33,009 nucleotides of DNA, taken from IMG/VR virus record IMGVR_UViG_3300042555_001626, positions 1-33,009 of that record, one strand, 5' to 3'. The position numbers and the translations under genes were made by a program. Position 1 is the first letter of the stretch. Each line of letters begins with the position of its first letter. Positions 4,465 through 18,370 of the stretch are shown piece by piece. The stretch comes from a virus. Under the pieces are notes generated by a model. The model did not search any database, had not been told where the DNA came from, and saw nothing but the letters and a program-made list of their open reading frames with translations.

Positions 4465-5127
4465 ATGTATATATTTCAAGCAACAAACAATCAGATTGGG
4501 GAAATTTTAAAAGAGTGCTGTATTCTAAGTGACTTAGAACCACCAGTTGAACCTAAACTAGTAATCGAATTTATTAAAAAGCATTTTGGTAAATACGAAG
4601 TCGAAATTATTAAACAAGCATTAGAATGTTGGATTGTAGGCAAGATTGAATTTAAAAAGCCTAACAACCTAAATGCACAATTCATATCTACGCTAATGTA
4701 TAAGTGTATAAGAGATGGTTATGTAGGCAAGGTACACCAATATATAAAAGAGACTAAAAACGAGCCTATGCAGGAAATTACTAAAGAAATGCATGAAGAG
4801 TCTTTGGCAATGGTTAAAAAAGAATGGGGCAAATATGAGGTATCTAAAAATTTCAGTTCATTGTTAAAATATTTCGAAATTCAATATGAGTACATTTATC
4901 GTAATTATGATAAGATGAACTATAGTGAACAAGAGAGGTTAGACATGAAAAATGAATTAATTAATGCAGTACATGAAAGTAAGATTAAGCAAGAAAAAAT
5001 GAGTAACCCATTTATGTTTGATTTTAGTAAGATAACAAGTGTAGTGCCTAATGTTAATTGGGATAGAGTAACTAGTGTATGTTTATATTTTAGAAAAATG
5101 TATGAAGCAGATAAATCTATTCACTAA
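4465..5127 (+). CDS. Replication-linked protein, possible helicase loader
   Basis: The 220-residue product starts 1 bp after the initiator. It is helical and charged, with an N-terminal section (CILSDLEPPVEPKLVIEFIKKHFGKYEVE) resembling small helical replication accessory proteins and a C-terminal FDFSKITSVVPNVNWDRV. There is no Walker A motif, so it is not a DnaC-type ATPase. Position alone suggests a helicase-loading or replisome role, as with lambda O and P. It overlaps the next gene by 26 bp. I do not recognise a named family. Confidence 0.65.
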   Translation: MYIFQATNNQIGEILKECCILSDLEPPVEPKLVIEFIKKHFGKYEVEIIKQALECWIVGKIEFKKPNNLNAQFISTLMYKCIRDGYVGKVHQYIKETKNEPMQEITKEMHEESLAMVKKEWGKYEVSKNFSSLLKYFEIQYEYIYRNYDKMNYSEQERLDMKNELINAVHESKIKQEKMSNPFMFDFSKITSVVPNVNWDRVTSVCLYFRKMYEADKSIH

Positions 5128-5494
5128 TGAAGTTGATGATAAGCCAAACAAGTATTCTAGTAAAATAGAAACCCCAATTTATGAGTGCAAAAATCAAAAG
5201 CCTCATATTTTAGAATTGTTTGATAAGACTAAGTATTCAAGATTATGCAATGAAATAGCACAATCAGATGTTAGTGATGAAGAAAAGGCTTTTTTAATTG
5301 CTTCAGCCTCAAGGCATATTGTGTTTAATTATGAAAAAATTGCAGATTACTATGCACATGCAGATAAGAGTTTACAGCATTTAATGGAGAAAAGTGGTTT
5401 AGTCATCATTGATTTTGAAAATGCAATCCAATATAATTATGTTAAAATGTGTGATGAAATAAGAAAGCAATATCTTGAAGAATATGGAGAATGA
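5102..5494 (+). CDS. Conserved-looking phage protein upstream of the glycosyltransferase
   Basis: From ATG 5102 the 130-residue product reads MKQINLFTNEVDDKP, then QKPHILELFDKTKY, DEEKAFLIASASRHIVFNYE, KIADYYAHADKS and LMEKSGLVIIDFENAI. The SRHIVFNYEKIADYYAHA and LVIIDFENAI blocks look strongly conserved; I recall similar proteins in phages of other phyla, some near modification genes, but cannot name the family with certainty. It overlaps the glycosyltransferase gene by 11 bp and so is likely co-translated with it. His and Asp/Glu residues are present without a textbook active-site pattern. Function unknown; a role with the modification genes is inferred from position. Confidence 0.65.
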   Translation: MKQINLFTNEVDDKPNKYSSKIETPIYECKNQKPHILELFDKTKYSRLCNEIAQSDVSDEEKAFLIASASRHIVFNYEKIADYYAHADKSLQHLMEKSGLVIIDFENAIQYNYVKMCDEIRKQYLEEYGE

Positions 5495-6311
5495 TTTTTG
5501 TGTGTTTATTTTAACACATGGTAGGCCAAATAATGTAGTGACTTACAAAACACTTAGAAATTATGGTTATACAGGTAAAGTGTATTTTATATTGGACAAT
5601 GAAGATAAAACTATTGATGAATATAAAAGTGTTTATGGTGAAGATAGTATAATTGTATTTGATAAAGAGTTAGTTTCTAATAGTGTAGATGAGTATAATA
5701 ATTTTGGTACTAGAAATGTAATTTTATTTGCTAGGAATTATTGTTTTGAAGCAGCCAAAAATCTAGGTTACAAGTATTTTTTGCAGTTGGATGATGATTA
5801 TTATTATTTTGGGTATAGATATGATGAAGGTGCGAAAAAGATTAAAAATCTAGATAAAGTATTTTCAATAGTTTTAGATTTTTACAAGGCTACAAATATC
5901 AAGAGTATTGCATTTAGTCAAGGAGGAGACCATATAGGTGGATTTAGTGGCATAAAGTTGAAGAGAAAATGTATGAATAGTTTCTTTTGTTCTACAGATA
6001 GAGAGTTTCAATTTGTTGGCGTGTTGAATGAAGATGTAAATACTTATACATTGTTAGGTAGTAGAGGTGAGTTGTTTTTTACTTTTACCAATTTGCAGTT
6101 AGACCAAAAAGATACACAAAGCAATAAAGGTGGAATGACCGATGCTTATAATTTAAGTGGTACTTATATAAAATCGTTTCATTCAGTATTGAGTTGTCCT
6201 AGTAGTGTAAAGATATCAATGATGAATACAAACTATGTAAGATTGCATCATTCAGTTAATTGGAATGCAACCACTCCAATGATTTTAGATAGCAAAGTAA
6301 AAAAATTATGA
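5484..6311 (+). CDS. TET-associated-type (GREB1-like) glycosyltransferase 1
   Basis: From ATG 5484 the 275-residue product shows a GT-A plan: first strand and loop FCVFILTHGRPNN (residues 5-17), a VYFILDNEDKT strand, RNVILFARN, then YFLQLDDDYYYF with the metal-binding DDD at 103-105. QGGDHIGG (146-153), RKCMNSFFC (161-169), NEDVNTYTLLGS (182-193), NKGGMTD and RLHHSVNWN (253-261) follow. I recognise this series from the TET-associated glycosyltransferase family described in phage DNA hypermodification loci, where members attach sugars to hydroxymethylated pyrimidines. No TET/JBP oxygenase is seen in this window, so the acceptor is unknown. An ATG overlap links it to the gene at 5102. Confidence 0.8.
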   Translation: MENDFCVFILTHGRPNNVVTYKTLRNYGYTGKVYFILDNEDKTIDEYKSVYGEDSIIVFDKELVSNSVDEYNNFGTRNVILFARNYCFEAAKNLGYKYFLQLDDDYYYFGYRYDEGAKKIKNLDKVFSIVLDFYKATNIKSIAFSQGGDHIGGFSGIKLKRKCMNSFFCSTDREFQFVGVLNEDVNTYTLLGSRGELFFTFTNLQLDQKDTQSNKGGMTDAYNLSGTYIKSFHSVLSCPSSVKISMMNTNYVRLHHSVNWNATTPMILDSKVKKL

Positions 6312-7997: not shown

Positions 7998-8136
7998 TGT
8001 TAGTTATTTGTTTGATTCAACACCAACAAAGAAGGTAGTGTATAGAGTTTGGTATAAAGGATTAATTGTTGGGGAGTACCCAGTAAAAGAACAAGCAGAA
8101 AAGTTAAAAGATAAAATAAATGGAAGTATTAATTAA
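7981..8136 (+). CDS. Small hypothetical protein, 51 residues
   Basis: ATG 7981 opens MKATVSVSYLFDSTPTKK, ending KEQAEKLKDKINGSIN: a likely beta-beta-alpha miniature fold. It overlaps the preceding gene by 17 bp and the ParB-like gene by 17 bp, filling what would otherwise be a gap in a continuous operon. No family recognised. Confidence 0.6.
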   Translation: MKATVSVSYLFDSTPTKKVVYRVWYKGLIVGEYPVKEQAEKLKDKINGSIN

Positions 8137-8797
8137 ATCGATTGATGAAATCAAAGAAAACCCTAATAATCCTAGAAGTATTAGTAAGGGTAAATTTAGA
8201 AAGTTAGTTAATTCTATTAAGGAGTTTCCTAAAATGCTAGATGTAAGACCTTTAGTAATTAATTCAGAAGGATATGTTTTGGGTGGTAATATGAGATTGA
8301 AGGCAATCAAGGAGTTAGGCTTTCAAGAAGTAAAAGTCATAGTTGCAGATGAATTTACTAAAGAACAAGAGAAAGAATTTTTAATTAAAGATAATTTGCC
8401 ATTTGGAGAATGGGACATTGATATGTTGGCAAATGAATATAATCTAGAAGATTTAGTTAATTGGGGATTTAGTGCAAGTGAACTAGCATTAGAAAAGATA
8501 GAAGATATAATTAATGAAACGGAGTATGATGAAGACCCTGTTTATCCTATTTCACCAAAAATTAGTGAGAAGCATGACTATGTTATGATTGTTTGTGATA
8601 ATTCAATTGACTATAATAATTTGTTGACCAAGTTAGGATTGGAGTACAATCAAGATTATAAGTGTCAAAGAGTTGGTATGGGAAGGGTAATTATGTTTGA
8701 TAAATTTAAAAAAATATTCAATGAAGGAAATAGTGAAAGTGGTGATAATGAGCCACAAAAGACCAACAAAGGTAGACACAAGAAAGGTAGTAAGTAA
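8120..8797 (+). CDS. ParB/Srx-like nuclease-fold protein
   Basis: Residues about 1-90 match the ParB/Sulfiredoxin fold: IDEIKENPNNPRSI, then RPLVINSEGYVLGGNMRLKAI with the GGNxRLxA core, then FTKEQEKEFLIKDNLPFGEW. A C-terminal part, HDYVMIVCDNSIDYNNLLTKL and MFDKFKKIF, resembles the region attached to phage ParB-like proteins near DNA modification genes. Stand-alone ParB-like proteins of this kind occur in phage DNA-modification loci and may bind DNA or have nuclease or nucleotide-hydrolysing activity. It lies between the two glycosyltransferase genes; its Lys-rich tail overlaps the second for 77 bp. The partition role of chromosomal ParB is unlikely, as no ParA is present. Confidence 0.8.
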   Translation: MEVLIKSIDEIKENPNNPRSISKGKFRKLVNSIKEFPKMLDVRPLVINSEGYVLGGNMRLKAIKELGFQEVKVIVADEFTKEQEKEFLIKDNLPFGEWDIDMLANEYNLEDLVNWGFSASELALEKIEDIINETEYDEDPVYPISPKISEKHDYVMIVCDNSIDYNNLLTKLGLEYNQDYKCQRVGMGRVIMFDKFKKIFNEGNSESGDNEPQKTNKGRHKKGSK

Positions 8798-9479
8798 TTG
8801 TATTATTAGTGTATCTGAAGAAGAGTACGAAGACTACAAAAAGTTTAACCCTCACAATGAATATCTTGTACACCCTAATGATGTTATAGGACTAACAAGT
8901 AAAATGAAGTGGATACATAAGCAATTAGGCAATTGTATTTTGATGGATGATGATTTAAATGCAATGAATAGATGTTATGTAGACAAAAGTTTCGAAGAAG
9001 GATTCAAGGTTGATGACCCAGATTTAGCATGGGAATTGATACAATCTACTGCCTATGTAGCAAAGCAATTGAATTGTTCAATGTTTGGCTTTAGTAATAC
9101 GGCTAGACCACTTGATTATTCATCATTGAAGCCATATTATTTGACAGGGTTTGCTATTGGTGGTAGTCTAGGTTTTTTTGAAGATTTTCCTATGGATAAA
9201 TTAGATGATGCATGTATATCAGCACAAGATTACTTTTGTAGTGCATTGAGTTCTTATTATAGTAGAAAAACTTTTATCAATAGAAAGTATGCATTTACTA
9301 GTAAAGAGCAAACATTTAAGTCAATTGGAGGAATGTCAGAACATAGAAACACAGATACAGAGAAGGCAGATTATTATTTGTTAAAACAATATTTTGGTAG
9401 TGTTATTGAAAGAAAGAAGCAATCCAATTTGAGAAAGTTGCAGAATCATTATGAAAGAATTTTAAAAATCCCGTTTTAA
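8721..9479 (+). CDS. TET-associated-type (GREB1-like) glycosyltransferase 2
   Basis: I start it at ATG 8721 because MKEIVKVVIMSHKRPTKV restores the first GT-A strand and the S/T-H-x-RP loop seen in glycosyltransferase 1 (FILTHGRP). The metal motif NCILMDDDLNAM (residues 71-82) matches LQLDDDYYYF. Later LTGFAIGGSLGFF, AQDYFCSALSSYYSR (like NEDVNTY) and IGGMSEHRN (like GGMTD) follow the same order. Overall similarity between the two enzymes is low, so they probably use different donors or acceptors. It overlaps the ParB-like gene by 77 bp and touches the methyltransferase gene. Likely role: glycosylating a modified base, or extending the sugar laid down by the first enzyme (inference). Confidence 0.7.
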   Translation: MKEIVKVVIMSHKRPTKVDTRKVVSNCIISVSEEEYEDYKKFNPHNEYLVHPNDVIGLTSKMKWIHKQLGNCILMDDDLNAMNRCYVDKSFEEGFKVDDPDLAWELIQSTAYVAKQLNCSMFGFSNTARPLDYSSLKPYYLTGFAIGGSLGFFEDFPMDKLDDACISAQDYFCSALSSYYSRKTFINRKYAFTSKEQTFKSIGGMSEHRNTDTEKADYYLLKQYFGSVIERKKQSNLRKLQNHYERILKIPF

Positions 9480-10069
9480 TGGAAAAGTTTTATTTAGATA
9501 GTTTAAAAAATAATGATGCCTATTTAATGAATGGGTGGTCAAGTGTAGATATGGCAATCAAAAGGTATTTGTTTGCAGTTCCTTTGTATAACAAATTTTC
9601 AGTAGAAGAATGTCCAATTATATATGATTATGGTTGTGGTACTGCAAATTTCAATGAATATGTCAAGCATAGAAAATATGTAGGTATTGAAGAAATTGAA
9701 GAAATGTACCTTAAAGCAAAAGAAATGTTTCCTAATGTAGAAGTACACCATAAAACACTAGAAGATATGAATATTGGTGTATATGGGTTTAAGTCATTGG
9801 CTATTGCATTAGGTATTTACATGGTAGGAGATAATGATACAAGAGAAGAAGTAATAGAGAAGACTATAAAGCATTGTAAACTTTTATGTGATAGACATTA
9901 TTATGGTTATTTGTTTAATTCTAAGCATGACCATGTAGATTATAAAGAACCACACATGGTATACTATAATTTAAGTGAGTTGATACATAGATTGCAAGAT
10001 GAAGGCTTAAAGGTTACATGTTATTTGTTTGATAAGTATGAGTTTTTTATGCATGTTAAAAAATTCTAA
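9479..10069 (+). CDS. Class I SAM-dependent methyltransferase
   Basis: The 196-residue product has motif I at 49-57 (YDYGCGTAN), the acidic end of strand 2 at YVGIEEIEEMY (67-77), and SLAIALGIYMV in the motif IV region. It lacks the (D/N/S)PP(Y/F) motif of DNA adenine and N4-cytosine methyltransferases and the PC motif of C5-cytosine enzymes, so it is more like small-molecule or sugar methyltransferases. Between a glycosyltransferase and a sugar deacetylase operon, methylation of the attached sugar is a reasonable guess. The start overlaps the upstream stop by one base. Confidence 0.75.
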   Translation: MEKFYLDSLKNNDAYLMNGWSSVDMAIKRYLFAVPLYNKFSVEECPIIYDYGCGTANFNEYVKHRKYVGIEEIEEMYLKAKEMFPNVEVHHKTLEDMNIGVYGFKSLAIALGIYMVGDNDTREEVIEKTIKHCKLLCDRHYYGYLFNSKHDHVDYKEPHMVYYNLSELIHRLQDEGLKVTCYLFDKYEFFMHVKKF

Positions 10070-10077
10070 AAATAAAT

Positions 10078-10110
10078 TTTGTATTTACAAATAAAAATAC
10101 TACCTTTACA
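10078..10110 (+). promoter_or_regulatory. Early promoter P4, leaderless type
   Basis: TTTG at 10078-10081, 19 nt, TACCTTTACA at 10101-10110, then ATG at 10113 only 2 nt later, as in P2. It should drive the operon from the RarA-like gene to terL. Confidence 0.78.
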
Positions 10111-10112
10111 CT

Positions 10113-10724
10113 ATGGATAAGAAGAACACCAAATACGAAATGAGAACGAAGTCAGGACTTGACTTCTATGTAGTAGCATCGGCTTTTCAAAAAGCAGTAA
10201 GAAGATGTGATGTGCAACAAGCAATGTACTTCGGTACGGAATTATTTATTAGTGGCTATGATGAATATGCATGGTCAAGAATAATTATTATGGTATCAGA
10301 AGATATTGGTATTGCAGAACCACAATTACCCTCCCAAATTCATGCATTGTATGAGTTTTACCAATTGTTGAAGAAGAAAAAAAACAAGCATGTTCCAGAA
10401 CGATTGCAATTTATACATGCAATCAATTTAATTGCTAGAAGTCAAAAATCTAGAATGGTTGACAATTATTTAGGTATGTATTTTGACAAGCGTGATTTGT
10501 TAGGTAAGGTTGAGATACCAGACCATGTGTATGATATGCATACAATCAAAGGTAAAATCATGAAGCGTGGCAATGACCACTTCTTTGAACATGCAGCATT
10601 TATCAATAATTGCCCTACACATTTACAAGAAGAGGAGTATATGTTGCGTGACCATATGCAAAAGATATGGAGTGAGAACAACAAACCAAGTGAGGTGAAC
10701 ATTGAGCAAATTGAATTATTTTAA
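10113..10724 (+). CDS. Stand-alone RarA/MgsA C-terminal-domain protein
   Basis: Residues about 20-70 (VVASAFQKAVRRCDVQQAMY, GTELFISGYDEYAWSRIII, SEDIGIAEP) closely follow the C-terminal, tetramer-forming domain of the RarA/MgsA/WRNIP1 AAA+ clamp-loader-like ATPases. The ATPase domain is absent: no Walker motif is present in 203 residues. RarA acts at stalled forks and binds SSB, so this protein might modulate host RarA or be adapted to replicating modified DNA. It heads the operon with the PIG-L and WbqC genes and ends one base into the next start. Family call is firm; role is inference. Confidence 0.72.
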   Translation: MDKKNTKYEMRTKSGLDFYVVASAFQKAVRRCDVQQAMYFGTELFISGYDEYAWSRIIIMVSEDIGIAEPQLPSQIHALYEFYQLLKKKKNKHVPERLQFIHAINLIARSQKSRMVDNYLGMYFDKRDLLGKVEIPDHVYDMHTIKGKIMKRGNDHFFEHAAFINNCPTHLQEEEYMLRDHMQKIWSENNKPSEVNIEQIELF

Positions 10725-11377
10725 TGAGTAAACAAATTATATTAGTAGTAGTTGCCCACCCTGATGATGAAGTATTGGGGTGCGGTGGCTATTTGTTAAA
10801 GAAATCAATTGAAGGTCATGAAACACATGTATTGTACATGAATAATGGCAATACTAGAGTAGGAAACCATAGAAGTGAAATTGAAAACCAAATACAAAAT
10901 GTTGCAAAACGATTAAAGTTTGTTGCCCACATTAAAGATTTTGTCAATAATAAGTTTGACACCTATTCTATAAGCAATATGGCTGATGAGATTAGGCAAT
11001 TAATCAATGAGATAAAGCCAACAATTGTATTGACACATATTAGCAATGATTTGCACCAAGACCATTTGGTTGTAAATCAAGCAGTTATGATTGCAAGTAG
11101 ATTTATGCCTAAGAGTTCTGTCAAAATGGTTATGACCTTTCCAACTATTAGTAGTAGTGAAGTAAACCCTAGTTTTGATTTCAGAGCAGATGCATTGTGT
11201 GATATTTCTGATTATATAAAAGAAAAGATAGATGCAATGGATGAATATGTATATGAACAAAATGCATTTAGTGAATTGAGAGGTAAAGAAGGCATAGAAG
11301 GTTGGGGAAGGTTTTATGGTATGCAAATCAATGTACCTTTTGCTGAAGGCTTTAGAATAGAAAGGATTGTCATATGA
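10724..11377 (+). CDS. PIG-L/LmbE-family zinc de-N-acetylase
   Basis: The AHPDDEVLGCGG signature at residues 11-22 supplies His12 and Asp15, and HQDH at 111-114 supplies the third zinc ligand; 217 residues is a usual family length. Members remove an acetyl group from N-acetylglucosamine in glycolipids or small thiols, exposing an amine. No signal peptide is present, so it works in the cytoplasm. In the same operon as a WbqC-like protein and near two glycosyltransferases, it probably deacetylates a GlcNAc-type sugar on phage DNA or on a nucleotide-sugar precursor (inference). The stop overlaps the WbqC start as ATGA. Confidence 0.87.
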   Translation: MSKQIILVVVAHPDDEVLGCGGYLLKKSIEGHETHVLYMNNGNTRVGNHRSEIENQIQNVAKRLKFVAHIKDFVNNKFDTYSISNMADEIRQLINEIKPTIVLTHISNDLHQDHLVVNQAVMIASRFMPKSSVKMVMTFPTISSSEVNPSFDFRADALCDISDYIKEKIDAMDEYVYEQNAFSELRGKEGIEGWGRFYGMQINVPFAEGFRIERIVI

Positions 11378-12075
11378 TTAGTTGCATGATAAGTCAGCCG
11401 AGGTATTTGCCTAGTATTACATATTTACATAGAATTGCATATGTAGATACCTTAGTAGCATACGATGATGTTCAAAGAGTAGCAAGAGACATAGAGAACA
11501 GGAATAAACTTGTCACACCTAATGGCAAACATCAGATGATAACGATTAGTATATGTTCTGGCAAGAGGGAATTGATTAAGAATAGTATGCTATGTAGTCA
11601 TGATGATTACGATAGACATGCAGAAACAGTTAAGCATTTCTATAAAAATAATTTGGTGTTTTATGACCAAGATATTGTAGATGGTTATTATAATGCTTTA
11701 AAATCTAGTATGCATATGAGGGATAGTTTTGTAGCAGGACTCCAATACCTTATAGACTTGTTTGAAATGGACACCAAAGTAGTTCTGTCAAGTTCCTTAG
11801 AGTACGAAAAAGTAGGAGGAGCAGAACAAATAGTTAAGATATGTAATGCAGTAAATGCAGATAAGTATATTAGTGGTAGAGGAGGAGTAAACTATGGAGT
11901 AACTAAAGAATTTTGTGAAAGTCATGGAATAACATTGTATGAGTATTACAATCATGTACACCCAGAAGTTGGTTTTTTTTACCAAATATTCAATGATGGC
12001 TTTGATAAATGGTATAATGTATTCAAAGAAAGTAGAATTGAAGTGTATAATAAATTAGACAAAGTAAACATATAA
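11374..12075 (+). CDS. WbqC-like family protein
   Basis: The 233-residue product opens MISCMISQPRYLPSITYLHR and continues with DTLVAYDDVQRVARDIENRN, the N-terminal signature of WbqC-like proteins, then the C-terminal SSSLEYEKVGGAEQIVKICN and DKYISGRGGVNYG. The family occurs in O-antigen and other sugar-decoration clusters, where it is thought to help modify amino sugars; its reaction is not settled to my knowledge. Translational coupling (ATGA) to the PIG-L deacetylase fits a two-step scheme in which a freed amine is then acylated or otherwise capped. That scheme is inference. Confidence 0.82.
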   Translation: MISCMISQPRYLPSITYLHRIAYVDTLVAYDDVQRVARDIENRNKLVTPNGKHQMITISICSGKRELIKNSMLCSHDDYDRHAETVKHFYKNNLVFYDQDIVDGYYNALKSSMHMRDSFVAGLQYLIDLFEMDTKVVLSSSLEYEKVGGAEQIVKICNAVNADKYISGRGGVNYGVTKEFCESHGITLYEYYNHVHPEVGFFYQIFNDGFDKWYNVFKESRIEVYNKLDKVNI

Positions 12076-12081
12076 AAAAAG

Positions 12082-12231
12082 ATGAAGACAAATAAGTACA
12101 GTAAACTAGACACAAATACTATTGACTATTGTCAAAGTGTAGGTGTAAATCCATTGAAGTTTAGTATGTGGATTCAGTATATTAAGAATCAGAATCAGAA
12201 AATATATTTTGATAAATTAAAAAAGTTATAG
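12082..12231 (+). CDS. Small hypothetical protein, 49 residues
   Basis: ATG 12082, six bp after the WbqC stop, gives MKTNKYSKLDTNTIDYCQSV and ends YFDKLKKL. Basic and helical, with SMWIQYIKNQNQK in the middle. No motif recognised. It fills the space before the HNH gene. Confidence 0.5.
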   Translation: MKTNKYSKLDTNTIDYCQSVGVNPLKFSMWIQYIKNQNQKIYFDKLKKL

Positions 12232-12234
12232 TTA

Positions 12235-12279
12235 TGGAAGATGAATACGATTTTTGGTATAACGAATTAGATTGGTAAT
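12235..12279 (+). CDS. Possible 14-residue acidic micropeptide or leader
   Basis: ATG 12235 to TAA 12279 would encode MEDEYDFWYNELDW. Its stop overlaps the HNH start codon (TAATG), so it might couple translation of the HNH gene rather than act as a protein. Too short to support on composition. Confidence 0.25.
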
Positions 12280-12532
12280 GAAACCGCATGTAAAAATATA
12301 TCTTGATTATTTTAAGTACGACTTGTATGACTTTATTCCTTGTGAGGTATGTGAATCTAGAGCAGTAGATATTCACCATATTGAAGCAAGAGGAATGGGA
12401 GGTACTAAGAAAAAGGATGAAATTGAAAACCTTATGGGATTATGTAGAGAGTGCCATGTTAAGTACGGAGATATATCGGAGTTAAAGGATTTTTTAAAGA
12501 AGATTCACAATTTAAGAATGGATGTTAAATGA
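12278..12532 (+). CDS. HNH endonuclease of the packaging module
   Basis: The 84-residue product has CEVC (residues 22-25), the HNH core DIHHIEARGMGG (31-42), Asn51 in ENLMGLC and CRECH (56-60). The two Cys pairs hold a structural zinc; the His residues and Asn form the beta-beta-alpha metal site that cuts DNA. Small HNH proteins next to terminase genes assist DNA cleavage during packaging in several HK97-type phages. It overlaps terS by 4 bp. The start is ATG 12278, which overlaps a short upstream frame; a TTG 6 bp earlier adds only two residues. Confidence 0.85.
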   Translation: MKPHVKIYLDYFKYDLYDFIPCEVCESRAVDIHHIEARGMGGTKKKDEIENLMGLCRECHVKYGDISELKDFLKKIHNLRMDVK

Positions 12533-12909
12533 AAAAGGCATTAGAAAAAAGCATAGAGGCTAGAATAGAGAAACGAGAAAACAATAAAATAGATTTCCTA
12601 GAAGCCTTAGAAAAATCGGCAGGTAATATTAGCATTGCTTGTAAGCAAATCAATGTAGGTCGTAGTACATTTTACAAATGGATGGAAGACCAAGACTTTG
12701 CATTAGCAGTGAAACATATTGAAGAGTCGATGATTGACCTAGCAGAAACTGCTTTATACAAGCAAATAAGAGAAGGAAATACTTCGGCTATTATATTCTA
12801 CCTAAAGTGCAAGGGTAAGAAAAGGGGATACGCAGAAAAACTTGAAATAGGCACAGAGGATGACAATCGTATTAAAATTGAAATCGTAGATGTTCGTACT
12901 CCAAACTAA
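12529..12909 (+). CDS. terS: Terminase small subunit (TerS)
   Basis: The 126-residue product has a charged N-terminus and a helix-turn-helix at about 33-52 (NISIACKQINVGRSTFYKWM), followed by DQDFALAVKHIEESMIDLAE and NTSAIIFYLKCKGKKRGYAE. This is the usual small-terminase plan: DNA-binding HTH, helical oligomerisation part, C-terminal tail. It should recognise phage DNA and present it to TerL. The HNH gene overlaps its start and terL overlaps its last 20 bp, the expected order. Assigned by the HTH, the NTSAIIFYLKCKGKKRGY block and its neighbours. Confidence 0.85.
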   Translation: MKKALEKSIEARIEKRENNKIDFLEALEKSAGNISIACKQINVGRSTFYKWMEDQDFALAVKHIEESMIDLAETALYKQIREGNTSAIIFYLKCKGKKRGYAEKLEIGTEDDNRIKIEIVDVRTPN

Positions 12910-14050
12910 TGTTGTATTTAGGCATTTAGTAAATAGTCAAAAGAAAATCATTGTAGAGCAAGGTGGTACTAGAAGTGGTAAAACCTATAATATATTGATG
13001 TGGTTAATCTTTGACTATTGTATGAATAACAAAGGCAAGATTGTATCTATAGTTAGAAAAACCTTTCCTGCAGTTAGGGCATCAGTAATGAGGGATTTCT
13101 TTGAGATATTGTCTAAGTGTAACATGTATAGTGAGGAGTTTCACAACAAGAGTCAGTTTGAATATTATTTGAATGGCAATACGATTGAGTTTATGTCCGT
13201 TGACCAACCACAAAAAGTAAGAGGTCGGAAGCGTAATATATTGTTTATCAATGAAGCAAACGAATTAGACCTAGAAGATTGGAGGCAATTGCTATTGAGG
13301 ACCACCGAAAAGGTGATATTGGATTTTAACCCTAGTGATGAGTTTCATTGGATTTACGATGAGGTATTAATTCGTGAAGATGTTGAATTTTACCAAACGA
13401 CCTATAAAGACAATCCCTTTTTGGAACAAGTAGTTATTGATGAGATTGAAAGGTTAAAAACTATTGATGAAAATTATTGGAGGGTTTATGGTCTAGGAGA
13501 GAGAGGTCAAAATAGAAGTACAGTATTCCAATTTATTATAGCAGATATACCAGAAACGGCTAAGTTAAAATCATATGGATTGGACTTTGGCTTTAGTGCA
13601 GACCCTTCAAGTCTAGTAGCGTTTTATATAGATGGAGATACTATATACTTCGATGAATTAATTTATCAGACAGGTATGACAAACATAGATATAGGTAATG
13701 CAATAAAAAGTATTGGTATAGATAGAAGAGATGTTATATGGGCGGATAGTGCAGAGCCGAAGAGTATACATGAATTGTATCAGTTTGGTTATAATGTTAA
13801 AGGAACTGTTAAAGGTTCGGATAGTATAAATGTTGGTATTGATATGATGAGAAGGTATACTATTGCCTTGACCAAGAGAAGCCTCAATTTAATTAAAGAG
13901 TTTCGTAATTATAAATACATAGAAGATAAGATGGGTAGGCTAACTAATAAGCCAGTAGATGCTTTTAACCATGGTATTGATGCATGTAGGTATGCCGTTT
14001 ACAATACTATGTCTAGACCAAATTTAGGCAGGTATTCAATACGAGGCTAG
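12890..14050 (+). CDS. terL: Terminase large subunit (TerL), ATPase and nuclease
   Basis: The 386-residue product is a short Terminase_3-type (PBSX-like) motor. The Walker A loop is GGTRSGKT (25-32); Walker B is ILFINEA with the catalytic Glu122; a coupling-type stretch KVILDFNPSD lies at 141-150. The RNase-H-like nuclease has YGLDFGFSADPS (Asp232), IWADSAEP (Asp286) and DAFNHGIDACRY (Asp364). It pumps DNA into the capsid through the portal and cuts it. It starts inside terS. Length is at the short end for TerL but all motifs are intact. Transcription probably comes from P4. Confidence 0.95.
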   Translation: MFVLQTNVVFRHLVNSQKKIIVEQGGTRSGKTYNILMWLIFDYCMNNKGKIVSIVRKTFPAVRASVMRDFFEILSKCNMYSEEFHNKSQFEYYLNGNTIEFMSVDQPQKVRGRKRNILFINEANELDLEDWRQLLLRTTEKVILDFNPSDEFHWIYDEVLIREDVEFYQTTYKDNPFLEQVVIDEIERLKTIDENYWRVYGLGERGQNRSTVFQFIIADIPETAKLKSYGLDFGFSADPSSLVAFYIDGDTIYFDELIYQTGMTNIDIGNAIKSIGIDRRDVIWADSAEPKSIHELYQFGYNVKGTVKGSDSINVGIDMMRRYTIALTKRSLNLIKEFRNYKYIEDKMGRLTNKPVDAFNHGIDACRYAVYNTMSRPNLGRYSIRG

Positions 14051-14092
14051 TCTGTCATAATTCAGTCATAAAAAAAATTTATGTAAAAATAT

Positions 14093-14125
14093 TTTGTATT
14101 TACAAAACTAAATTGTATCTTTACA
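14093..14125 (+). promoter_or_regulatory. Early promoter P5
   Basis: TTTG at 14093-14096, 19 nt, TATCTTTAC at 14116-14124, then ATGGTAATTAAGAATACAAA, closely like P1 and P3. The ATG of the next gene is at 14148. The gap 14051-14147 also carries a GTCATAA direct repeat (14053 and 14065) but no clear terminator. Confidence 0.8.
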
Positions 14126-14147
14126 TGGTAATTAAGAATACAAATAT

Positions 14148-14471
14148 ATGAAGAACACAATTTCAACATCGCAAGAACTTGTAGGCAAGTTCATTAACAG
14201 GTACTTATGGACAGACATTCAACCAATTGGTAAGATTGTTGGCATTAAGTCTAAGACTACAGTCTTTGTTCAAAAGGTAGTAGCAAGTGAGAACAAAGTA
14301 AAGATGGAGTTTATTCCAGGAGGTTTCTCGGTTCATTGTACAAATGATTCTAGTCAAGAGTATGATTTTATTGAGACAAATGAAATCATGGAGATTAGAT
14401 TAAGTAAGCAATACTTGAAGTCTCATGGTATTGATGAAAGACCTCGCAATTATTACGATTATAATTTTTAA
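14148..14471 (+). CDS. Hypothetical protein of the anti-restriction cassette, 107 residues
   Basis: First gene behind P5. The product reads MKNTISTSQELVGKFINRYL, then IGKIVGIKSKTTVFVQKVVA and MEFIPGGFSVHCTNDSS, ending RPRNYYDYNF: beta-rich, no membrane segment. The GKIVGIKSKTTVFVQKV stretch reads like a small SH3-type barrel. I do not recognise a family. Placement in an early-type operon with ArdA makes a counter-defence role worth testing. Confidence 0.7.
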   Translation: MKNTISTSQELVGKFINRYLWTDIQPIGKIVGIKSKTTVFVQKVVASENKVKMEFIPGGFSVHCTNDSSQEYDFIETNEIMEIRLSKQYLKSHGIDERPRNYYDYNF

Positions 14472-14474
14472 GCA

Positions 14475-14573
14475 ATGCAAAGAGTAAAGAATATAATCAT
14501 TAACACGATGAACGCTTTGTTTATCCTAGCATTTATAATTGGTTTATTAGTAAGTATATTAGAAAGAATATGA
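14475..14573 (+). CDS. Single-pass membrane peptide, 32 residues
   Basis: ATG 14475 encodes MQRVKNIIINTMNALFILAF and ends SILERI, one hydrophobic helix from about residue 7 to 29. The stop overlaps the ArdA start (ATGA), so the two are probably co-translated. Function unknown; tiny membrane proteins in such cassettes can be exclusion factors, but nothing here shows that. Confidence 0.5.
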   Translation: MQRVKNIIINTMNALFILAFIIGLLVSILERI

Positions 14574-15085
14574 AAGTACAAATTTATGTTGGCACATATG
14601 CCAAATACAACAACGGAAGTATAGAAGGTAAATGGATAGATGTTACCGATTTATCAAAAGAAGAGTTTGAGCAAATATGTAAAGAATTGCATAATGATGA
14701 AGAAGACCCAGAGTATATGTTTCAAGATTGGGAATGTCCTAGATACCTAGATAATTTTATTGGTGAAAGTGGTATCATGGATAAATTTTGGGATATCAAA
14801 GAAGAGGGCAATGGATTAAGTGATGATGATTTGGAGGCATTCTCAATATTTGTAGACCATGGACACCCCGCAGATTTAAGAAAGTTTAGAGATGCATATA
14901 AAGGGCATACTAATTCGTTCAATATTGAAAGAGATTTTGGTTATGAAATAGCAGAAGAAATGGGTTACATTGACCAAATGCCAGAATCGATTAGGTATTA
15001 CTTTGATGCAGAAGCATTCGGAAGAGATTTACTTATGACAGACTTTTGGGAAGAAGATGGTCACATATTTTATAGTTTTTATTAA
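14570..15085 (+). CDS. ardA: ArdA anti-restriction protein (DNA mimic)
   Basis: The N-terminus VQIYVGTYAKYNNGSIEGKW, followed by IDVTDLSKEEFEQICKEL, is the hallmark of ArdA, as in ORF18 of Tn916. The rest is rich in Asp/Glu (HNDEEDPEYMFQDWECPR, EEGNGLSDDDLEAFSIF, EIAEEMGYID), and 171 residues is the normal length. ArdA folds into an elongated dimer whose acidic surface imitates B-form DNA and blocks type I restriction-modification enzymes. It lies between host-type promoters, so it should be made as soon as DNA enters, although its neighbours are late genes. Confidence 0.92.
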   Translation: MKVQIYVGTYAKYNNGSIEGKWIDVTDLSKEEFEQICKELHNDEEDPEYMFQDWECPRYLDNFIGESGIMDKFWDIKEEGNGLSDDDLEAFSIFVDHGHPADLRKFRDAYKGHTNSFNIERDFGYEIAEEMGYIDQMPESIRYYFDAEAFGRDLLMTDFWEEDGHIFYSFY

Positions 15086-15094
15086 GTAATAAAT

Positions 15095-15126
15095 TTTGTA
15101 GAATCAAAAAAATTAAGTACCTTTAC
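15095..15126 (+). promoter_or_regulatory. Early promoter P6, leaderless type
   Basis: TTTG at 15095-15098, 19 nt, TACCTTTAC at 15118-15126. The ATG at 15127 overlaps the promoter end at the same place as the untranslated ATGGT of P1, P3 and P5, so the in-frame ATG at 15136 is the likelier start. Confidence 0.75.
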
Positions 15127-15135
15127 ATGAATAAT

Positions 15136-15411
15136 ATGAAAAAGAACACAAACCCTAAGTACGAAGAAATGGAGTATGAACTTCAAGATGACATTAATGG
15201 ATTGAAGTTATTTTATGCTCATGATTTTAAAGATGCCCCTCAAGAAATTGATGATGAAGCAAAATGGATTATTGGTAGTATTGAAGAAGACCTATTGGAG
15301 ATTAGTTATAATTCTAATGGTCCAGATGACTATTATAGATTAGCATTTAGTTTCGTTGAAAAAACTTGGGAAAGAATGAATAGTTTGTTTGAAACATTCT
15401 ATGAAGAATAG
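15136..15411 (+). CDS. Very acidic 91-residue protein next to ArdA
   Basis: I choose ATG 15136 because the -7 box of P6 ends at 15125. The product has about 23 Asp/Glu against 9 Lys/Arg: YEEMEYELQDDINGLKLF, APQEIDDEAKWIIGSIEEDL, SFVEKTWERM, FETFYEE. It has no membrane segment or catalytic motif. A small, very acidic protein under an early promoter beside ArdA could be another DNA mimic or a nuclease inhibitor; that is inference from charge and context. A terminator follows 31 bp later. Confidence 0.72.
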   Translation: MKKNTNPKYEEMEYELQDDINGLKLFYAHDFKDAPQEIDDEAKWIIGSIEEDLLEISYNSNGPDDYYRLAFSFVEKTWERMNSLFETFYEE

Positions 15412-15442
15412 TATATTTGTGTAGTTTAGTGATGAGCAATCT

Positions 15443-15465
15443 AGGAGGTGAAAGCCTCCTTTTTT
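15443..15465 (+). terminator. Terminator closing the anti-restriction cassette
   Basis: Stem AGGAGG (15443-15448) and CCTCCT (15455-15460) with a TGAAAG loop, then a U-tract to 15465. Its T-run leads directly into the TGTAAC box of late promoter L1. Confidence 0.88.
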
Positions 15466-15466
15466 G

Positions 15467-15496
15467 TGTAACAAAGCAAAAGATTTAAGTTTTATA
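15467..15496 (+). promoter_or_regulatory. Late promoter L1 (TGTAAC / GTTTTATA)
   Basis: TGTAACAAAG at 15467 and GTTTTATA at 15489-15496, with the ATG at 15500: the TGTAAC-to-ATG distance is 33 nt, as in L2-L5. It heads the tail operon. Confidence 0.68.
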
Positions 15497-15499
15497 TAT

Positions 15500-16222
15500 A
15501 TGGAGAAAACCATCATAGTCCCAACCTCGTTAAAAGATATAACCCTATATCAGTATTTGGAGTATGAAAAATTGCCTGATACATTGGATGAATTTAGTAG
15601 AGCAATTCAAACCATTAGTATTTTTTGTAATGTGACTACAAACGAAATAAGAAAGTATCCTTACAAAGTAGTCGAAGACATATTATCTAGTATTCAAAAA
15701 GCATTGTCCGAAGATTGTCCCTTTGAAAGAGTATTTGAATTTGAAGGCAAAAGGTATGGATTTGTACCAAATCTAGATGAAATGAGTACGGCTGAGTTTG
15801 TTGATATTGATAATTACCAAAGAGATAGAGATAACTTGTATAAGGTAATGTCCGTATTGTATAGGCCAATATATCAAGAGGAAGGTAAAACCTATGATAT
15901 TGTCACATATGATGGTAAAATCAATGAAAGTTTTAGAGAATTGCCAATGACCTATGTAAAAAATGCCATTGTTTTTTTTTGCAATTTAGGAATAGACTTG
16001 TTGAATTATATAAAGAAGTCTTTAGTGGAGGAGAAGCCGAAGGACTCAGTAATGCTGGAGTTACAGCGTTTGGCAAAAAATGGGGATGGTATGGATTCCT
16101 TTATGGTTTATGTGGAGGAGACATACTCAAGATTGATGAAGTGGTACGCCTCCCTATACACAAAACATTATTGTGGCAGAGTTACATACTTGACCTACAG
16201 GAAGTTCAGAAATCAGAATTAA
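15500..16222 (+). CDS. Tail assembly chaperone, unshifted product
   Basis: ATG 15500 is set by L1; the frame is open upstream but that part overlaps the terminator. The 240-residue zero-frame product has MEKTIIVPTSLKDITLYQYL, FERVFEFEGKRYGFVPNLDE and AIVFFCNLGIDLLNYIKK. Position between terminase and tape measure, with a shifty T-run near the C-terminal third, matches the gpG/gpGT tail-chaperone system, which holds tape measure and tail tube proteins before assembly. A domain-level match is not visible by eye; the frameshift and gene order carry the call. Confidence 0.6.
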   Translation: MEKTIIVPTSLKDITLYQYLEYEKLPDTLDEFSRAIQTISIFCNVTTNEIRKYPYKVVEDILSSIQKALSEDCPFERVFEFEGKRYGFVPNLDEMSTAEFVDIDNYQRDRDNLYKVMSVLYRPIYQEEGKTYDIVTYDGKINESFRELPMTYVKNAIVFFCNLGIDLLNYIKKSLVEEKPKDSVMLELQRLAKNGDGMDSFMVYVEETYSRLMKWYASLYTKHYCGRVTYLTYRKFRNQN

Positions 16223-16245
16223 ACAAAATAAATGGAAAGAGATAA
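15500..16245 (+). CDS. Tail assembly chaperone, -1 frameshift product
   Basis: A run of nine T at 15972-15980 is read as GTT TTT TTT TGC in frame zero. A slip of -1 on T-TTT-TTT (15973-15979) continues as TTG CAA TTT AGG and reads to a stop at 16243-16245, giving 248 residues. The -1 frame from 15979 encodes a convincing domain: LQFRNRLVELYKEVF, AFGKKWGWYGFLYGLCGGDI, HKTLLWQSYILDLQE. That FGKKWGWY...GDI pattern is familiar from Bacteroidota phage tail genes. The frame has no good start of its own, which supports expression by frameshift. Confidence 0.65.
15972..15980 (+). promoter_or_regulatory. Programmed -1 ribosomal frameshift site
   Basis: Nine consecutive T in the chaperone gene provide a T-TTT-TTT slippery heptamer in the right phase. 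I see no strong stem or pseudoknot downstream by eye. A single-base length error in this homopolymer is the alternative and would fuse the frames without a slip. Confidence 0.6.
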
Positions 16246-16726
16246 AAACCATATAGGCACAGTTATAAATTATTTCAAGGATGTTGCTACTCATATGGGG
16301 GCTAGATTTAGTCATGGCAATATTACCGAAATGAATTTTAGAAGTGCCTTAGTATATCCGTATATTCATATAAATATTGGTCAAGTAAGTGTTACTAATC
16401 AAGTAGTTTCGTTTAGTATAAACTTGTTAGTAGCAGATAGAGTTAATACAATTACTACAGAAAACCAAGGATTGAATGAGCAATTGCTTTATGATGAAAT
16501 AGGTTATACGGAGAACAATAACTATGCAATGGTTTTGCAACAATTGTATGTTGACCTTGTAATTTCATTAAGGAAGTATGAAGAGCTGTACTATAATTCG
16601 TTGGAAATTCTAAAGCCATATAATTTGACTCCATTTGAGGAAAAGTATGATGATGTATTAGCAGGTTATACATGTACAATCAATATTGAAGTTGTTTCAC
16701 CAATTGTAACCGATGGATTTTGCTAA
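16232..16726 (+). CDS. Head-tail or tail completion protein, 164 residues
   Basis: The product reads MERDKNHIGTVINYFKDVAT, SALVYPYIHINIGQVSV, VVSFSINLLVADRVN, ENQGLNEQLLYDEIGYTENN and ends INIEVVSPIVTDGFC. An N-terminal helix, then beta strands with VYPY and NLLVADR, resembles small proteins encoded between tail chaperone and tail tip genes in Bacteroidota phages, probably tail terminator or completion proteins. It overlaps the frameshifted product by 14 bp and the next gene by 14 bp. Confidence 0.6.
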   Translation: MERDKNHIGTVINYFKDVATHMGARFSHGNITEMNFRSALVYPYIHINIGQVSVTNQVVSFSINLLVADRVNTITTENQGLNEQLLYDEIGYTENNNYAMVLQQLYVDLVISLRKYEELYYNSLEILKPYNLTPFEEKYDDVLAGYTCTINIEVVSPIVTDGFC

Positions 16727-17261
16727 TACAAATAAAGTATTGAGAAACATGGCGGTGTTTCAAGCAAACCAAATGAGAATTAATTTGGGTGCTAAAGTAA
16801 CTCGTAAAGTGTATAGGTCTCAATGGCAAAATGGTAATCCTAAAAATGTTACTGTTAAAACAATAAGAGCAAACCATATTGCTAGTGGTCAATTGGTCAA
16901 TAGCATAAAACCAACCTATGAAAATGGGGAATTTGGTGTTTCTATGTTAGATTATGGGTTTAATGTAAATGATGGGAGAGACAAAGGCAAAGGTATACCA
17001 CCTGATGTTATGCTTAATTGGACTAGTGTTAAAGGTATTAGGCCTAGAAATTTAATAAATGGTCAATTTATAAAAAATACTATGAACAATCGTAAAGCCA
17101 TGGCATTTTGTATGAATAGAAAGATTAAGTTTTTTGGTATTGAAGCATTTCCTTTTATTGATATGAGTGTTGATGTAACTGAGGAGAAATTCGAAAATGA
17201 TTTAAATGATGCATTAGAGAATGATGTATATGATTATGTAAAAAAAATATTTAAAGAGTAA
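16713..17261 (+). CDS. HK97 gp10-like tail/neck completion protein
   Basis: The 182-residue product has an N-terminal helical part, ASGQLVNSIKPTYENGEFGV around residues 52-71, LDYGFNVNDGRDKGKGIPPD (74-98), and a C-terminal AFCMNRKIKFFGIEAFPFID. The order 'S-G-x-L-x-x-S-I, then Y/D-G, then GRD-KGKGIP, then RKI...GIE..PF' is typical of HK97-gp10-like proteins, which sit at the head-tail joint and help finish the tail. It is flanked by overlapping tail genes. Confidence 0.65.
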   Translation: MDFANTNKVLRNMAVFQANQMRINLGAKVTRKVYRSQWQNGNPKNVTVKTIRANHIASGQLVNSIKPTYENGEFGVSMLDYGFNVNDGRDKGKGIPPDVMLNWTSVKGIRPRNLINGQFIKNTMNNRKAMAFCMNRKIKFFGIEAFPFIDMSVDVTEEKFENDLNDALENDVYDYVKKIFKE

Positions 17262-18370
17262 TGCCAACAAGTATAATAGTTCAGCCTAGTAGTATAAAAG
17301 GTGCATATAGTTCAATGTTGTATCAGGCTTATGATACCTCATATGCTAGTTCAGGGTTTTATTACCAATATAAAGTATATGTATGGAGTGGTACAACAGC
17401 AATACCTGCCACACCGATTGCAACAATTCAAAGATTGCCCGATGTATATGCTAGTAATAGAAGTTTCATAGATATAAGTAAGATTGTTACACAATATATC
17501 CAAACGGAATGGTTCACAATAGGTGCAAGTAACCCTACAATTAGTTTAGGTTCTGTATATGCATGTGTAAAAGTACAAGGTATATGGAGTGGAGGGTCTA
17601 GTGTTGAGATAACTAGTAATGTTATATTAGCGACTAAAGGCTATGAATACACTTTAGATGGATTTAACCAAGCAACTAGTAAGAGAGTATTAACGGATAG
17701 AAGTACATTATATTTGACTACCGATACAGCATATGATTATTTATGGTATGATGCAACTAAGATAACAAGTATAAACATTGGTGCAACAGTAGTTACTCCT
17801 AGTGCAGTTACAAATAGTAGTAACTATATACAAAGTATTGAGTTAAGGTCTAGACTAACTACTGCAGGATTATGGGGGCAAAATTGTGATATTGTTTTTA
17901 ACTATAGTGGTGGTAGTCAAACTATTAATGTAGTATTTGATTGTGTAAACAAGTATGGATGTCTTTCTTTATTTTATAAAAATAGATATGGAGTAATAGA
18001 ATGTCTAAGTATGAATGCTTTAAGTAAAGTTGCAATGACAACTACTAAAGAGAACTTTTACAAAGGAGTTTATGCTCAAGCAAATATGGCAGATGCATGG
18101 TCTTATGGGGTTAGAGTTAATTCGTTGTATAACATACAAGGCGTATATAAATTATTAGCGAATACAAATTGGATTACAGAGTCTTATGTAAATATCGTTC
18201 AACAAATACTTTTGAGTGATGTATGCTATGCTATATACGATTCTAAGACTTATGCTTGTCAGATAAGTGATTCGTCAATGGATAAGAAAACTTACAAGAA
18301 TGATAAGTTAATTATGTACACCATGAATTTTGAATTTGCTCAACCTTTAATCAATAGCATAGTAAGATAA
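17261..18370 (+). CDS. Structural tail protein, 369 residues (distal tail-like)
   Basis: A beta-rich product with few charges: SIIVQPSSIKGAYSSMLYQA, QRLPDVYASNRSFIDISKIV, ILATKGYEYTLDGFNQ, and a C-terminal MYTMNFEFAQPLINSI. PDVYASNRSFIDIS and ATKGYEYTLDGFN are stretches I associate with Bacteroidota phage tail proteins that precede the large tail-tip gene. It shares single-base overlaps with both neighbours. A distal tail or baseplate component is the best guess; the family has no better name that I know. Confidence 0.6.
   Translation: MPTSIIVQPSSIKGAYSSMLYQAYDTSYASSGFYYQYKVYVWSGTTAIPATPIATIQRLPDVYASNRSFIDISKIVTQYIQTEWFTIGASNPTISLGSVYACVKVQGIWSGGSSVEITSNVILATKGYEYTLDGFNQATSKRVLTDRSTLYLTTDTAYDYLWYDATKITSINIGATVVTPSAVTNSSNYIQSIELRSRLTTAGLWGQNCDIVFNYSGGSQTINVVFDCVNKYGCLSLFYKNRYGVIECLSMNALSKVAMTTTKENFYKGVYAQANMADAWSYGVRVNSLYNIQGVYKLLANTNWITESYVNIVQQILLSDVCYAIYDSKTYACQISDSSMDKKTYKNDKLIMYTMNFEFAQPLINSIVR

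Follow-up and report, generated by a model that had tools for sequence, protein, structure and literature searches.

What do a deacetylase of the PIG-L family and a protein of the WbqC family do when their overlapping genes lie just upstream of the terminase genes of a virus? The window, a whole linear IMG/VR record of 33,009 bases that may be a fragment, contains such a pair. It is proposed here, tentatively, that within a viral DNA-glycosylation module located at the terminase locus the pair is responsible for tailoring an amino sugar. The proposed module comprises a ParB protein, a TAGT-type glycosyltransferase, a methyltransferase, an MgsA_C-like protein, PIG-L and WbqC.

The PIG-L (LmbE) family N-deacetylase consists of 217 amino acids and is encoded at 10724..11377 (PF02585, 83.6 bits, cut-off 28.2). 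The WbqC-family protein, the proposed amide ligase, consists of 233 amino acids and is encoded at 11374..12075 (PF08889, 103.6 bits, cut-off 21.3). The stop codon of the first gene and the start codon of the second are read in the sequence as ATGA at 11374-11377 on the + strand. The overlap described in the sequence-only reading is thus present between two genes that both exceed their Pfam cut-offs, and it suggests that they are translationally coupled. The MgsA_C-like gene (10113..10724; PF12002, 41.2 bits, cut-off 27) shares one base with the PIG-L gene (TAATG). It is preceded by the genes of a small class I SAM methyltransferase-like protein (9479..10069; Methyltransf_25, E 0.0027, below the cut-off), of a second TAGT-like glycosyltransferase, TAGT2 (8721..9479; PF20691, 25.9 bits; phrog_842, E 8e-14), and of a ParB-like protein that pairs with TAGT (8120..8797; PF02195, E 5e-5, below the cut-off; PHROG ParB-like, E 3e-27). 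Downstream of the pair and on the same strand, profile searches identify an HNH endonuclease (12278..12532, ATG at 12278; PF01844, 32.3 bits, cut-off 21.4), the terminase small subunit TerS (12529..12909; PHROG terminase small subunit, E 2e-9) and the large subunit TerL (12890..14050; Terminase_3, E 1.5e-23). By position, a 49-codon ORF (12082-12231) lies between WbqC and HNH. The ArdA antirestriction protein is encoded on the + strand just 3' of TerL (14570..15085; PF07275, E 2.2e-28).

All genes from the ParB-like gene to TerL are co-directional on the + strand. A scan of this strand between 7000 and 14300 found no terminator-like site, and promoter-like matches were not in excess (40, vs 43.2 with sd 6.2 in shuffled sequences). 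A single operon containing the pair, HNH, TerS and TerL is plausible.

The sequence-only reading omitted the fact that the window encodes two TAGT-type glycosyltransferases, a strong one at 5484-6311 and a weak one at about 8721-9479. TAGT1 (5484..6311, + strand) is a clear member of PF20691 (132.6 bits, cut-off 27.5; phrog_842, E 2.5e-70). A small gene at 5105-5494, which has no Pfam match, overlaps the start of TAGT1 and occupies the same place in a related record, L031. TAGT2, whose likely start is the ATG at 8721 and which was analysed from 8745, falls below the family cut-off (25.9 vs 27.5 bits), and its homologue in the viral contig G096 (E 1e-32) passes it with 39.5 bits; another homologue is found in Streptococcus phage Javan291 (E 4e-6). 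No solved relatives of TAGT1 or TAGT2 were found by sequence.

The relatives of TAGT1, 80 loci kept of 153, are 53-76% identical to it. Fifty records of these 80 loci, hand-picked and mostly longer contigs, contain no PIG-L gene, a result that counts against the proposal, and a single Tet_JBP gene is found among them, in L031. The order at 7086-10993 of L031 is ParB-like, TAGT (32.7 bits, cut-off 27.5), Tet_JBP (43.7 bits, cut-off 34.9), TerS and TerL; its ParB-like, TerS and TerL genes were named by position and sequence reading, the ParB-like one having no Pfam match. The other TAGT of this record is 72% identical to TAGT1 of the window. The combination of ParB and TAGT also lies 5' of the terminase in Javan291 and immediately 5' of TerS-TerL in an E. 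coli phage and in Lactobacillus phage jlb1, and it is present in haloarchaeal HHTV-2. Homologues of the ParB-like protein of the window adjoin TAGT in Javan291 and in the viral locus G108, and another is found in the record G088. The terminase locus thus seems to be where a glycosyltransferase of this family, which is known to act on DNA, is commonly placed. In the available part of PMC13216743, the T2/T6 TAGT is described as acting on glucosylated hmC in DNA and extending a sugar already present. The same part reports TAGT without an alpha- or beta-glucosyltransferase in 288 of 753 phage genomes, solitary TAGTs being common.

The pair recurs together with TAGT in other viruses. No lead came from comparing positions 9000-20000 with phages by megablast, from scanning viruses with WbqC, PIG-L or TAGT2 as single proteins, or from tblastn of WbqC against phages. 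The MgsA_C-like protein, a conserved partner in the module that corresponds to the C-terminal part of MgsA/RarA but has no AAA+ domain, served as a bait that was blind to PIG-L and WbqC; MgsA_C-like proteins at L227 11260-12294 and L229 2354-3466 also lack the AAA+ domain and, like that of the window, are found with TAGT close to the terminase locus. Among the 60 viral loci obtained with it, TAGT is found in 40, ParB in 44, PIG-L in 18, WbqC in 13 and the TAGT, PIG-L and WbqC triple in 11. One of the loci, L250, and G096 are one contig, and G096 was itself in the query alignment. WbqC always occurs with PIG-L (both 13, WbqC alone 0, PIG-L alone 5, neither 42; p 2e-9). PIG-L is associated with TAGT (16, 2, 24 and 18 in the same order; p 0.02) and ParB with TAGT (37, 7, 3 and 13; p 5e-6); WbqC and TAGT reach no significance by themselves (11, 2, 29 and 18; p 0.19), and all these p-values are too small, the loci being related. 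Four cyanobacterial relatives of the bait (L299-L302) were set aside, their examined stretches having yielded no match to TAGT, ParB, PIG-L or WbqC.

A PIG-L motif scan yielded 56 stretches. In a sample of 50, made up of 48 of these stretches (L206-L212 and L112 being left out) and phages DLP3 and DLP5, WbqC is found in 15 and TAGT in six, five of them over the cut-off; all six belong to the 15. In total, the triple is present in 17 records including the window, near ParB and/or the terminase. Clustered at 40% identity, these records form five groups by PIG-L or TAGT and seven by WbqC. The module recurs in about five diverged lineages, an observation as direct as the gene identities and the overlap in the window. 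The sequence-only reading had named a lack of co-occurrence with TAGT-like genes across phages as its refutation; the pair does occur with them, and the idea gains support.

The gene order varies between lineages. In G088 it is ParB, a PglD-type acyltransferase, PIG-L, WbqC, a TAGT-like glycosyltransferase (below the cut-off), an MgsA_C-like protein and the terminase, and the ATGA overlap of PIG-L and WbqC recurs. In G099 the order is PIG-L-WbqC-TAGT-MgsA-TerL, PIG-L and WbqC being one base apart and ParB and PglD absent from the stretch. The MgsA_C-like copies of G088 and G099 are longer, and that of G088 resembles, by eye, two tandem copies. In G096, TAGT, the methyltransferase and the MgsA_C-like gene follow each other, and PIG-L and WbqC, again with an ATGA overlap, are on the other strand; a TerS-like gene and a TerL-like gene, the latter without a Pfam match, adjoin. 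The MgsA_C-like protein of G096 is 45% identical to that of the window, and its methyltransferase, in the same place, is also homologous (E 2e-4). The L243-type lineage likewise has PIG-L and WbqC on the strand opposite TAGT-MT-MgsA-TerL, an arrangement that does not support the earlier suggestion that tailoring takes place as DNA is packaged; that suggestion was kept as no more than an idea. The order PIG-L-ParB-TAGT-MgsA without WbqC is seen in L238, L239, L241, L244 and L257, and in L298, a Prevotella MAG.

The biochemical part of the proposal depends on the likeness of both proteins to enzymes of bacillithiol synthesis. The PIG-L protein of the window carries HPDDE and HQDH, HPDDE and H-x-D-H being the zinc/catalytic motifs of the family. 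Regular expressions missed HPDDE in 8 and H-x-D/E-H in 4 of 22 PIG-L rows, which may be variants or truncated frames. The best NCBIfam match of the window protein is BshB1 (TIGR04001, E 4e-14). The equivalog cut-off is not reached (53 vs 182.5 bits), and bacillithiol synthesis proper was rejected on this ground.

WbqC has no comparable match by sequence. A sequence-profile search found no solved relatives, the BshC profile did not match, hmmscan with E up to 1 listed PF08889 only, no NCBIfam family matched at E up to 0.01, and Foldseek alone gave no significant match in the PDB. AlphaFold models were obtained for the WbqC of the window (mean pLDDT 88.5) and for a second viral WbqC (92.4). Among solved structures, BshC of Bacillus subtilis is the top match of both, with Z 14.9 and rmsd 3.3 over 218 of 233 residues for the window protein (next row Z 7.2), and Z 14.1 and rmsd 3.4 over 220 residues for the second (next row Z 8.7). 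The lower-ranked matches are mostly aminoacyl-tRNA synthetases (aaRS), nucleotidyltransferases and PanC. WbqC is thus predicted to have a BshC or class I aaRS-like fold over its whole domain, a likeness that belongs to predicted models and, as a fold, shows no function by itself.

Bacillithiol synthesis proceeds, according to the available part of PMC4360819, through a glycosyltransferase, a deacetylase and a cysteine ligase; BshC is the putative ligase that acts after the deacetylase BshB, and MshC takes the same role after MshB. The BshC-like fold of WbqC and the BshB1-like PIG-L, as two separate lines, both suggest that an amino sugar is deacetylated and then ligated to an amino acid or a similar acid. 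The deacetylate-then-cap scheme of the sequence-only reading is strengthened to this extent; its placing of the sugar on DNA goes beyond what the fold and the BshB1 match show. Bacillithiol is also methylated, by NmbA (PMC12719100, as far as that source was available), to which the methyltransferase of the module may be a parallel.

The proposed sequence of events would be as follows. A modified base would receive an N-acetylated amino sugar from TAGT; alternatively, tailoring might come earlier, on the nucleotide sugar. PIG-L would strip the acetyl group from the amino sugar, and WbqC, acting like BshC, would join an amino acid or a similar acid to the freed amine through an amide bond. A further mark would come from the methyltransferase. 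Together with the phage ArdA, the product would protect the DNA against host nucleases.

Against the proposal, the window, which may be a fragment, yielded no Tet_JBP and no thymidylate-synthase-type hydroxymethylase (PF00303), even with E values up to 1 allowed, and no cytosine C5 DNA methylase was found in it. Tet_JBP was also not found in 10 module or comparison records. A link to modified DNA is provided by a cultured virus, Stenotrophomonas phage DLP3, the DNA of which resisted 15 of 15 restriction enzymes and is inferred by the authors to be modified (PMC7326821, in the part available). Shortly 5' of TerL, DLP3 encodes PIG-L, WcaG, a WecE aminotransferase, a methyltransferase (annotated as Erm), a glycosyltransferase and ParB. 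WbqC and TAGT have no match in DLP3 or DLP5, and DLP3 consequently backs the PIG-L part of the proposal only. The earlier statement that the chemistry has no tie to a characterised phage needs qualifying for PIG-L, given its place near TerL in a phage with resistant DNA.

The main rival explanation places the amino sugar elsewhere, on a surface polysaccharide of the host or a glycoprotein of the virion; tailoring by the pair would then be comparable to lysogenic conversion or superinfection exclusion, and its position near the terminase would be incidental. This reading is unlikely. A scan with an exact WbqC motif gave 33 viral records, of which 32 have WbqC and 20 have PIG-L (19 over the cut-off), always within about 2 kb of WbqC (20/20). 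None of the 33 has TAGT; TAGT viruses were absent from this first scan because the exact motif does not match them. The pair in these 20 records is mostly in glycan-type clusters with GT2, GT8, DegT and epimerase genes. Conserved viral clusters surround PIG-L and WbqC in L138-L140, L144-L148, L150 and L151, that of L148 having, by Pfam, GT2, GT8, DegT, methyltransferase and epimerase genes. The pair of G002 is in a nonulosonate cluster (NeuB, CTP-transferase), plasmid WbqC genes are in comparable polysaccharide-type clusters, and sugar clusters of cyanophages are read as O-antigen modification in the available part of PMC7824862. For the WbqC alignments, L105 was dropped as not being a WbqC, and alignment A5 was made without L097, L108, L116 and L117, which are cut short or duplicates. 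Three GenBank 'Bacteriophage sp.' entries, MT838042, MT838729 and MT837438 (L002, L003 and L004), resemble bacterial chromosome fragments and were not taken as phage evidence; the WbqC of MT838042 entered alignment A1 as one row and had no other use.

Against a surface or virion glycan, nucleotide-sugar synthesis genes were not found among the window ORFs scanned, the window has two TAGTs and ParB, and the pair recurs with ParB, TAGT, MgsA and the terminase in several lineages. A nonulosonate variant of the module is seen as well. G108 (L230 2176-16941) begins with ParB-TAGT, Polysacc_synt_2, DegT, two NeuB, a hexapeptide transferase, DegT and WbqC, and continues with two methyltransferase-like genes, a CTP-transferase, PIG-L and TerL. 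G110 and G122 match this layout by gene order and sequence likeness. In L230, L231 and L232 a nonulosonate-type pathway lies between ParB-TAGT and TerL. The simplest reading of the locus is a CMP-nonulosonate (sialic-acid-like) pathway bracketed by TAGT and the terminase.

Less probable again is that the two genes travel together as a mobile cargo cassette, which often lands in the variable slot 5' of the terminase and has no role in DNA modification. The pair of the L243-type lineage, on the strand opposite its neighbours, and the lack of the pair in the close TAGT1 relatives of the window are what a cassette would leave. However, all 13 WbqC loci among the 60 have PIG-L and 11 of the 13 have TAGT, and the set recurs though its gene order changes with the lineage. 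A small, diffusible bacillithiol-like glycoside, a deacetylated amino sugar with cysteine made against host defence or redox stress and leaving no mark on DNA, would suit the BshB1-like PIG-L, the BshC-like WbqC and the three-enzyme BSH route (PMC4360819, available part), but it is improbable, as no scanned ORF of the window matched a BshA-type glycosyltransferase, the partner glycosyltransferase is TAGT-like and the linkage to TAGT and ParB is left unexplained.

DNA glycosylation as such is known in phages; a deacetylase linked to a BshC-like ligase would be a new DNA chemistry and, if true, a new route past restriction and CRISPR nucleases. The little-studied WbqC family gets a testable function, amide ligation following PIG-L; candidate partner genes are also gained for the genomes with TAGT only (288 of 753) counted in the available part of PMC13216743. 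A bolder and rather unlikely extension is that a widespread viral module, made up of a ParB-partnered TAGT, PIG-L and the aaRS-like ligase WbqC, writes aminoacylated amino sugars that give the DNA a charged, peptide-like coat; the sugar of TAGT in one lineage could then be a CMP-activated nonulosonic, sialic-acid-like one. A limited search of the open literature met no published description of the pair, which is a weak negative.

Several known systems resemble the module in part. BshB with BshC, and MshB with MshC, share with it the succession of a PIG-L family deacetylase and a ligase. However, BshC has a chain of 540 residues vs 233 in the WbqC of the window, the partner glycosyltransferase is TAGT-like and not BshA, and the gene setting differs. 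T-even phages make hmC at the nucleotide level. The TAGT of T2/T6, a beta-glucosyl-HMC-alpha-glucosyltransferase, belongs to the same family, PF20691, as TAGT1; in contrast to T2/T6, an hmC-making enzyme was not found in the window, and no deacetylase or WbqC is mentioned for T2/T6 in the available part of PMC13216743. The large, multi-gene sugar clusters of cyanophages, assigned to O-antigen or capsule modification in the available part of PMC7824862, differ in size from the pair and are similar to it as phage-borne sets of sugar-modifying genes. DLP3 and DLP5 have PIG-L, a methyltransferase, a glycosyltransferase and ParB near TerL, as the window does, but they have WcaG and WecE and no WbqC or TAGT match. 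Phage glycosyltransferase clusters linked to TET/5mYOX, which Iyer in 2013, Burke in 2021 and Pyle in 2024 are said to have described, combine TAGT with accessory sugar enzymes, and the relative L031 has TAGT beside Tet_JBP, whereas the window has no Tet_JBP match. A variant of phage DNA glycosylation that includes a BshB/BshC-like tailoring step is the best, if still tentative, account of the locus.
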